A stretch of 64,000 bases of DNA, taken from Candidatus Edwardsbacteria bacterium RifOxyA12_full_54_48 (GTDB taxonomy: Bacteria; Edwardsbacteria; AC1; EtOH8). Position numbers and translations under genes: made by a program. A model generated the notes under the pieces. The model ran no database searches and was not told where the DNA came from. It was given only the letters and a program-made list of their open reading frames with translations. Where the stretch lies: assembly GCA_001777915.1 (NCBI GenBank), contig MFFN01000001.1, forward strand, positions 62,001 through 126,000, written 5' to 3'. Position 1 is the first letter of the stretch. The number at the start of each line of letters is the position of its first letter. Of the stretch, positions 34,319 to 37,470 are shown piece by piece.

Positions 34319-35599
34319 ATGAAAACCATAATAGTCATAACACTAATAATTCTTTTTTCCCCCATCCTAGCCGTTGCCTCCTTTGAAGAAATACAGACCG
34401 ATGCCCGGCTCTACGGCCTGGCCGGGGCCGGGGTGGCGCTATCCGACAGGACCGGCAGCGACCTGCATAATCCGGCACTCCCGGCCCTGGCCCTGGACCT
34501 TTCGGCCTCCAGCGGCAGTTCGATCCCGTTCGGGCTGGCGGACCTGGCGGCCTTCTCCGGCGCCTACGCCAGGCGAAAGGATAAAATGGGGATGGGCGCA
34601 GTGCTGGCGACTATGGGCGGCCGTCTTTACCGGGAAAATATTTTAAAAGGGGCCATCTCATACCGCCTGACAGAAAAGGCGGCGGTGGGGGCTTCCCTTA
34701 ATTGCTATCAGTTGAACATCGAAAGGTACGGTTCGGCGGCCGGAATGGGGCTGGACCTGGGACTGCTGGGTAAGCCAGCGGAATGGCTGGCGCTGGGAAT
34801 GGTGGCTGCCAATGTGAACCGGCCGACCATCGGCCAAAAACGGGAGGAGCTTTCGCAAAGCCTATCGCTGGGCGCGGCGTTGGAGCCCCTAGATGAAATT
34901 ACGCTTTTGGTTGCGCTTGATGGCCAGCGGGGCTGGCCCTGCCAGATCCGCATCGGGCAGGAATATCGCTATGGCAACCTTTTGGCCCTCAGGGCCGGGT
35001 TTTGCGATCGGCCCAATGCGGCCAGCCTGGGCTGCGGGGTGAGCCATAAAAATTTAAGGCTGGATTATGCCGTCAGGACCCACACCGATCTGGGGCTGTC
35101 CCACTGCCTCAGCCTGAACTATATCACCCAGAGGATGTTTGCCGAGCCTGAGGAGGTCAGGGTAAAGAAGGCCTCAACCGTAAATATCGTCGAAAAGATA
35201 GACCCCAACAGCGCATCATTTGATGAGCTCTGTCTTTTGCCCGGCATCGGGCCCCAATCAGCTGCGGACATCATGGCTTTTCGCGACAGCATCGGGCCGT
35301 TCAAATACCTCGATGATCTGGCCGAGGTCAAGGGGATCGGCCGGTCATTGCTGGAGAGGATGGCCCCGTATATGACCCTGGAATACAAACCCGATATTCC
35401 GCCAGTTATCAATATCAATCAGGCCTCGGCCCAGGAATTGGCAACCCTGCCGACCATCGGGCCCAAGACCGCCGGGGACATTGCCGCCTACCGCCAGGAG
35501 AACGGGCCCTTCCGGAGCCCGGAGGATATAATGAACGTCAAGGGCATCGGGCGGAGGACCTACGAGGAGATAAAGAATCTTATCACTATCGGGCCATGA
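34319..35599 (+). CDS. PorV-like outer-membrane barrel fused to two ComEA-like HhH domains
   Basis: Exported protein of 426 aa. A signal peptide (IIVITLIILFSPILAVA) is followed by a PorV/PorQ-like barrel region (about 22-275), starting ARLYGLAGAGVALSDRTG and DLHNPALPAL. Residues about 285-350 and 358-424 form two helix-hairpin-helix units of ComEA type: SFDELCLLPGIGPQSAADI with EVKGIGRSLLERM, and SAQELATLPTIGPKTAGDI with NVKGIGRRTYEEI. ComEA-like HhH pairs bind DNA in the periplasm during natural transformation. Fusion of such domains to a barrel suggests DNA handling at the outer membrane, an inference. It overlaps the next gene by 4 bp. Confidence 0.8.
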   Translation: MKTIIVITLIILFSPILAVASFEEIQTDARLYGLAGAGVALSDRTGSDLHNPALPALALDLSASSGSSIPFGLADLAAFSGAYARRKDKMGMGAVLATMGGRLYRENILKGAISYRLTEKAAVGASLNCYQLNIERYGSAAGMGLDLGLLGKPAEWLALGMVAANVNRPTIGQKREELSQSLSLGAALEPLDEITLLVALDGQRGWPCQIRIGQEYRYGNLLALRAGFCDRPNAASLGCGVSHKNLRLDYAVRTHTDLGLSHCLSLNYITQRMFAEPEEVRVKKASTVNIVEKIDPNSASFDELCLLPGIGPQSAADIMAFRDSIGPFKYLDDLAEVKGIGRSLLERMAPYMTLEYKPDIPPVININQASAQELATLPTIGPKTAGDIAAYRQENGPFRSPEDIMNVKGIGRRTYEEIKNLITIGP

Positions 35600-37470
35600 A
35601 CAAACTTCTGAAGGGCCTGCTGCTGCTGGCAATCCCCCTAAATGGCGGGGCCCAGGAGATGCCCGACATCGAGGACGAGCAGGCCTCGCAGGACCTTGCC
35701 GAGCAGATGATCTATCTGCAGGAGCACCCGGTAAATCTCAACCATGCCGACCTTGACCAGCTGATGACCCTTCCGGCGATCACTCCCTACCAGGCCCTCC
35801 GGCTGAACCGATATTTAATAAGCCATCCCAAATTGAGCGACCCCTTCCTTCTAGTCAGGGATTCCATTTTGGACCTGCCAGCCGTGGAATCTTTGCTGCC
35901 TTATATCTGCCTTGATTCCTATCTCCCCGCCCAAAGCGTCAAATTAAAGCTTTCCACCAGACTGCAGAGAAAGTGGCCGGATGCGGAGGGAATTGCCGAC
36001 GGCAGTTTTAATGGTTCGCCGCTGGAGAGCCGCACCCGGATGTGGTTCCGTCCGGATGAAAATTGGGAGGTATTCGGGCAATGCCAGCATGACGTGGGCG
36101 AGCCGGCCTGGAACGACTATTATTCCGGCAATCTATGGTGGTCGGATCACGAAGGAACCAAGCAGGTGATAATCGGGGATTATCAAATGAAGATCGGGGA
36201 GGGGCTGGTGTTCGGCGGCAGCTCGCCCCGCATATTCTCCAGCTACTGGTCCGGCTCGGCCCGGCTTGACGCGGCAGCGGTTCGCCAGTATTTTTCCTCC
36301 CACGAAAACAGGGGTTTAAGGGGACTATGCTTAAAATACCTATTAGTTGACAACTTTAACTTTATCTGTTTTGCCTCCCGGCGTCAGATGGATGCCAAAA
36401 TAGATTCGTTGGGCCGCATAACCAGCATCTATGATGACGGCTATCATCGCAGCGATGCGGAGCTGGAGAGGAAAAACAACTCTACCGAGACCATCTTTGG
36501 CGGACGGGTGGGCTTTAGCGCCGGCCGCTCTTGCGATATTGGGATAATCGGATATAACCGGTCCTTCGATAAAACGACGGCCGAAGGATTATATAATGCC
36601 TTTTTGATCAGCCTGGATGCCAGAACAGTATTGGATAAAAATTGGGCCTCGCTTGAACTGGTCAAGGGCCGGGGGCCGCTCGGCGGGTACAGCGGGGAGA
36701 TAGGTTTTATGGTGCGGGACTATGCCGGCCGAATCAATTTTTACGGATATTCCCCGAAATTCAAGCCTCCCCGCTTTAATTCGGACAACTATTACGGCGG
36801 CGATGATGAAAAAGGGGTCACCATCGCCGGGTCGTACCGGGCTCCATTGGGCTATGATATTTCGGCCATATATAACCAATTCCATCCCTGGCAGCCGTTT
36901 TCCATTTCATCCCAGAGTTACAGGGGTTTTCGTTATGAAGCCAGGCTGGGCAAAAAAATATTCCAAGGGCTTCTGGCCGATCTTCGGATCAGATCTCTGC
37001 AAAAAGAATATTTTGACGATGGACAATCCGGGGCCCCAATATATCATACCTCGAACCTTACCTTCAAGACCGGCCTGCAGTGGCAATTGGGAAAGAAGTT
37101 CAGCGCCACCGGCAGGCATCAAGCATCCTTTTTCGGGGATTCCCGGGATGATGACAGAAAGCGCGGGGAACTACTGTCCCTGGCCTTAAAAGCCCAACTG
37201 CCAAGAGACATCACCATCCAAGGCCAGACGGTATTTTACTACGCACCCAGTTACGATGCCAGGCTTTACCTGGCGGAGCCGGAGCTAAGGTCCGGGGGGA
37301 GCTTTCACGGCTACTGGGGCCTGGGGCGGCGGGATGCATTATTTTTGAGATATGCTTTGGGCCGCTCCGGGGCCGGTTATCTGAAAATAGCCAGGCAAGT
37401 AAGGGATTACCAGGGCCAGATCGCAAAAAACACCGAGCTGGGAATCGAGCTGGAATTTTTGTTAAAATAG
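35596..37470 (+). CDS. HhH domain plus outer-membrane beta-barrel protein
   Basis: Exported protein of 624 aa translated with the previous gene (ATGA overlap). A short signal peptide (KGLLLLAIPLNGGAQ) is followed by an N-terminal helix-hairpin-helix region (about 48-115) with HPVNLNHADLDQLMTLPAIT and YQALRLNRYL, again ComEA-like. The rest is rich in alternating aromatic and polar residues (for example MKIGEGLVFGGSSPRIFSSY), fitting a large beta-barrel of 20 or so strands. Similar HhH-barrel proteins exist in Bacteroidetes as uncharacterised proteins. The pairing with a second HhH-barrel gene suggests one outer-membrane complex. Confidence 0.75.
   Translation: MNKLLKGLLLLAIPLNGGAQEMPDIEDEQASQDLAEQMIYLQEHPVNLNHADLDQLMTLPAITPYQALRLNRYLISHPKLSDPFLLVRDSILDLPAVESLLPYICLDSYLPAQSVKLKLSTRLQRKWPDAEGIADGSFNGSPLESRTRMWFRPDENWEVFGQCQHDVGEPAWNDYYSGNLWWSDHEGTKQVIIGDYQMKIGEGLVFGGSSPRIFSSYWSGSARLDAAAVRQYFSSHENRGLRGLCLKYLLVDNFNFICFASRRQMDAKIDSLGRITSIYDDGYHRSDAELERKNNSTETIFGGRVGFSAGRSCDIGIIGYNRSFDKTTAEGLYNAFLISLDARTVLDKNWASLELVKGRGPLGGYSGEIGFMVRDYAGRINFYGYSPKFKPPRFNSDNYYGGDDEKGVTIAGSYRAPLGYDISAIYNQFHPWQPFSISSQSYRGFRYEARLGKKIFQGLLADLRIRSLQKEYFDDGQSGAPIYHTSNLTFKTGLQWQLGKKFSATGRHQASFFGDSRDDDRKRGELLSLALKAQLPRDITIQGQTVFYYAPSYDARLYLAEPELRSGGSFHGYWGLGRRDALFLRYALGRSGAGYLKIARQVRDYQGQIAKNTELGIELEFLLK

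Follow-up and report, generated by a model that had tools for sequence, protein, structure and literature searches.

An overlapping gene pair joining outer-membrane barrels to ComEA-type helix-hairpin-helix domains, a candidate outer-membrane part of a DNA-uptake system

Domain structure of P1 and P2

Downstream of ftsZ, the window (the whole stretch of 64,000 nucleotides that was analysed) carries two genes on the plus strand, P1 (34319–35599, 426 aa) and P2 (35596–37470, 624 aa), which share an ATGA overlap. An earlier note on this DNA had described an overlapping and translationally coupled pair, and both open reading frames were found as described. As read from the sequence, both proteins open with a hydrophobic, signal-like stretch at the N-terminus. 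A short ORF with an IMPNHIHGI motif, presumably related to REP-associated tyrosine transposases, which it resembles, lies between ftsZ and P1 (33877–34299), and an ORF of 144 aa occupies the same place at locus L026.

The AF2 model of P1 (pLDDT 87) comprises a barrel of 14 strands (aa 61–269; 34499–35125), a disordered linker (aa 272–290) and two helix-hairpin-helix (HhH) domains at about aa 300–420, the limits of which were set to aa 292–356 (35192–35386) and aa 364–426 (35408–35596). The best PDB match in Foldseek was PorV of the type IX secretion system (8gl6_F / 6h3i_F), and the strand number together with this match identifies a 14-strand FadL-type fold. Profile searches detected two HHH_3 domains (134 bits, cut-off 27) and the ComEA-type HhH repeat TIGR00426 (103.8 bits, cut-off 53.1), while the full-length ComEA family TIGR01259 scored 124.5 bits and thus below its cut-off of 152.35. 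The N-terminal part is PorV/PorQ-like with 49.9 bits, below the curated family cut-off of 90. PorV/FadL-like folds are known for carriers and transporters, and the barrel of P1 is at most a putative pore.

P2 was modelled (pLDDT 82, pTM 0.80) as a helical region at aa 26–103 (35671–35904), corresponding to a degenerate HhH domain, followed by a large barrel of approximately 24 long strands (aa 117–623; 35944–37464). The search for related folds yielded no close match among solved structures (best TMq 0.44). P2 itself gave only half an HhH match below the threshold (15.9 bits); the domain is clear in its homologues, e.g., that of locus L033 (1.8e-24). The arrangement read earlier from the sequence, a PorV-like barrel followed by two ComEA-like domains in the first gene and the reverse order with a big barrel in the second, is therefore confirmed by the models of both proteins, with the qualification that the HhH domain of P2 is degenerate.

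DNA-binding hairpins and membrane orientation

The hairpins of P1 read GIG and GIG in the first HhH domain and TIG and GIG in the second, the second glycine being kept throughout, whereas in P2 the GxG hairpin is lost (LPAITP). The same difference was observed among homologues: GxG is kept in the first hairpin of 18 of the 22 HhH domains fused to PorV-like proteins, compared to none of the 153 HhH domains that belong to large barrels. The net charge is −5 and 0 for the two domains of P1 and −8 for aa 26–106 of P2, compared to +4 for the genome's own ComEA. Based on these hairpin counts and charges, the HhH domain of P2 more likely binds protein than DNA, which disagrees with its earlier assignment as a DNA receptor; only the domains of P1 look competent for DNA binding, which in their case could be weak or require assembly. 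The earlier note had regarded HhH regions without a positive hairpin surface as an argument against its proposal, and this applies to P2, whereas P1 is not basic but retains its GIG-type hairpins.

Outer-membrane barrels with an even number of strands have both termini on the periplasmic side. As both barrels are even-stranded in the models, the HhH domains of P1 and P2 should face the periplasm and act behind the membrane, rather than at the cell surface.

Conservation and distribution of the gene pair

The pair is present in eight other genomes of the window's family; in a ninth relative (G007), no match to P2 was obtained. Comparison with three sisters from the genus gave dN/dS values of about 0.22–0.25 for the pair, indicating purifying selection on both genes, and because of this conservation within the family a chance overlap of open reading frames can be ruled out. 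The P2 profile also identified HhH-barrels in many unrelated genomes, where their genes are usually preceded immediately by one for a PorV-like protein. Among named genomes, a scan with a profile built from a 5-sequence alignment yielded 61 relatives in Bacteroidota, Ignavibacteria, Calditrichota, KSB1, TA06, Gemmatimonadota, Eisenbacteria and others. These and 40 sampled Bacteroidota loci form a set of 101 loci in addition to those found first. A PorV-like gene lies close upstream of the HhH-barrel gene in 55 of them, with gaps of mostly −11 to +40 nt, and the two are directly adjacent in this order at dozens of loci, including ones from Bacteroidota, Ignavibacteria, KSB1, TA06 and Eisenbacteria. 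Matches at E ≤ 1e-8 were obtained in 139 of 148 Bacteroidota genomes, some of them to HhH domains only. Family f191 lacks full HhH-barrels, as do several genomes of f182, f186, f192 and others; outside a few such families, the protein is near-universal and single-copy in the sampled Bacteroidota. P1 and P2 are a local form of an outer-membrane module of wide distribution, the two genes of which encode a PorV-family barrel and a large HhH-barrel. Our literature search in open-licence papers returned none describing this pair, and papers on the BAM complexes of Bacteroidota contained no HhH-barrel in these complexes.

In the PorV tree, fusions of PorV-like barrels with HhH domains occupy at least two clearly separate positions, perhaps four, some nodes having weak support. 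At one locus (L101 in G103), a PorV-like protein, a PorV-HhH fusion and an HhH-barrel are clustered with two other HhH proteins, of which one has five HhH repeats and one is small.

The window's genome harbors a second, unfused pair (281 and 848 aa) at locus L009 (4446–14025), located inside a recurrent cluster that is found in several phyla and is referred to as Q-type. It encodes a large secreted protein, the PorV-like protein, an HhH-barrel with two HhH domains, another barrel and a 5'-nucleotidase; a solute-binding protein and transporter genes are situated nearby. The secreted protein has OB-fold, DUF5689-like and FlgD-type domains and one stretch with similarity to the DNases ExeM/NucH. 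In Riemerella anatipestifer, an HhH protein (RA0C_RS02645), a barrel (RS04915) and a DUF5689 protein (RS04920) are all required for transformation (PMC8459023). By analogy, the Q-type cluster may be likened to this set, in which the same three kinds of protein occur; the comparison is one of protein kind only, and HhH domain and barrel reside on separate polypeptides in Riemerella.

Association with comEC and a possible role in DNA uptake

ComEC is the inner-membrane DNA importer. In G071, a genome placed in the Bacteroidota via its nearest named relatives, comEC and the gene for the HhH-barrel share 10 nt. Within the family of this genome, the two genes lie at most 2.5 kb apart in 47 of the 49 genomes that possess both, and five genomes lack both (Fisher p = 4e-4, a value that ignores kinship and the joint loss of neighbours). 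Together with an upstream gene for the PorV-like protein they form an operon, in which neighbouring genes are −19 to +62 nt apart and comEC comes last. Across 22 loci, one per genus with few exceptions, comEC directly follows in 21 and the PorV-like gene precedes in 19, while the genes further out vary. The DNA-uptake proposal of the earlier note gains a genetic link from this family, and the window's genome itself carries comEC and dprA. The linkage to comEC is the best evidence for a role of the HhH-barrel in DNA uptake. However, in the window's genome and the other sampled families comEC is distant from the HhH-barrel gene, and two genomes with an HhH-barrel, G199 (98% complete) and G115 (96%), had no ComEC match. 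Phylogenetic profiling, also proposed earlier, was uninformative: ComEC was found in 148 of 148 Bacteroidota and in 196 of 212 genomes across phyla and, being near universal, cannot discriminate.

In addition to ComEC and DprA, the window's genome encodes ComEA and pilus motor genes, as does the competence machinery built on type IV pili and a secretin (PilQ, ComEA, ComEC). The outer-membrane component proposed here is a barrel and not a secretin, and no secretin domain (PF00263) was detected in the window's genome at E ≤ 10. Its genus sisters have one or two secretins each, so this possibly reflects an assembly gap. A general role of the pair as a replacement for a missing secretin is unsupported, as most genomes sampled across phyla carry one.

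The best-supported explanation is that the pair constitutes the outer-membrane component of a competence system for DNA uptake, which we consider to have an about even chance of being correct. It would account for the conserved operon with comEC, the frequent position of the PorV-like gene upstream of the HhH-barrel and the repeated fusion of canonical HhH domains to PorV-like barrels, and also the nuclease-like stretch and the 5'-nucleotidase of the Q-type cluster, the transformation proteins of Riemerella and the competence genes of the window's genome would fit. Against it stand the loss of the DNA-binding hairpin in the barrel HhH domains, the non-basic HhH domains of P1, the restriction of the comEC adjacency to a single sampled Bacteroidota family, the two genomes without ComEC match, the prevalence of secretins, the non-discriminating profile of ComEC and the frequent neighbourhood of the type IX protein PorD (see below). 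In such a system, both proteins would presumably act in one complex and transport would be directed inward. The HhH-barrel would form the channel through the outer membrane or a scaffold for it, and its degenerate periplasmic HhH domain would serve docking or oligomerization. The PorV-like partner would be an accessory barrel and possibly anchor a surface receptor; in the lineage of the window, it has gained two periplasmic HhH domains, which could hold incoming DNA in the way ComEA does and pass it on to ComEA and ComEC.

P1 shares with the periplasmic competence receptor ComEA two HhH domains with intact GIG-type hairpins but differs in the fusion to an outer-membrane barrel, in a whole-protein score below the ComEA cut-off and in being less basic than the genome's ComEA. 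For the passage of DNA across the outer membrane in transformable bacteria without a pilus secretin, such as the Bacteroidota, the one genetic screen found in the literature, that in Riemerella, could only propose a candidate barrel (PMC8459023), and a near-universal Bacteroidota barrel family in an operon with comEC now provides a named candidate gene for this step. If true, a role in DNA uptake would explain why HhH domains and outer-membrane barrels were joined recurrently across phyla. As a more far-reaching and tentative proposal, somewhat more likely to fail than to hold, the HhH-barrel and the PorV-family protein may represent an undescribed class of outer-membrane DNA importer in Bacteroidota and allied phyla, a secretin-free beta-barrel complex which feeds ComEC and in some lineages has the periplasmic DNA receptor fused to the barrel.

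Relation to the type IX secretion system

Alternatively, the pair may serve export or surface anchoring in the manner of the type IX system: a secreted surface protein would be carried or anchored by the PorV-like member, and the HhH domains would mediate protein interactions. We consider this unlikely, though several observations point to it, among them the PorV match of the P1 barrel and the FlgD-type C-termini of the upstream secreted proteins in Q-type clusters. PorD-like genes are divergent neighbours at 34 loci, and PorD belongs to the extended type IX translocon (PMC10994853). Moreover, the PorV-like partner is present at 25 of 35 SprA-positive Bacteroidota loci compared to none of 6 SprA-negative ones (Fisher p = 0.002, tallied by hand and with kinship ignored). 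By contrast, the sampled f188 genomes and G071 have retained the HhH-barrel and lack SprA, and f191 genomes possess SprA and no full HhH-barrel, which rules out the HhH-barrel as a core type IX component; an operon with comEC would also not be expected. The PorV-like gene may therefore go with the type IX system, and by this pattern of co-occurrence the HhH-barrel does not. P1 shares the 14-strand barrel with the PorV/PorQ family (FadL superfamily) and has PorV as its best fold match, but it scores below the family cut-off and is distinguished by a barrel of about 210 residues, the C-terminal HhH domains and the pairing with an HhH-barrel that is independent of SprA. Since the HhH-barrel is independent of SprA while its partner tracks SprA, both functions might be combined, the HhH-barrel serving DNA uptake and the PorV-like protein anchoring a surface protein delivered by the type IX system.

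At several loci (L010, located at G000:C3:16000-30000 on the minus strand, L248–L253 and L255), a gene of the SprA translocon family is directly followed by a small ComEA gene. In the window's family, which shows this arrangement, three PilB-type ATPases, PilT and PilC come next in several genomes. The adjacency of SprA and ComEA, which would be in line with a type IX-like module, also occurs in G145 and G067 (Gemmatimonadota). At two other loci (L254 and L257, in G039 and G143), the small ComEA gene is located beside PilB/PilT/PilC and SprA does not adjoin.

Functions other than DNA import

If the HhH domains were structural, as in PsbU or GspK, and unrelated to DNA, the protein would be a general transporter of the outer membrane or serve in envelope assembly. 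This would agree with the loss of GxG in all barrel HhH domains, weak matches to PsbU and GspK profiles and the near-universal single-copy occurrence in most sampled Bacteroidota families. The operon with comEC and the fusions with canonical HhH domains argue against such a function, which we regard as improbable. Still less probable is a nutritional use of scavenged extracellular DNA or nucleotides instead of genetic transformation: the 5'-nucleotidase, the OB-fold protein with its ExeM/NucH-like stretch and the solute-binding protein and transporter genes near the Q-type pair would suit it, but the pair downstream of ftsZ is without such neighbours and the comEC operon points to strand import across the inner membrane.

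Two further loci concern comEC itself. In G407 (L268), an intact comEC lies downstream of an HhH-barrel gene with an interrupted frame (477 and 189 aa), and in G103 (L266; G103:C2:10000-26000) several ComEA-like ORFs are interleaved with ORFs that match ComEC.
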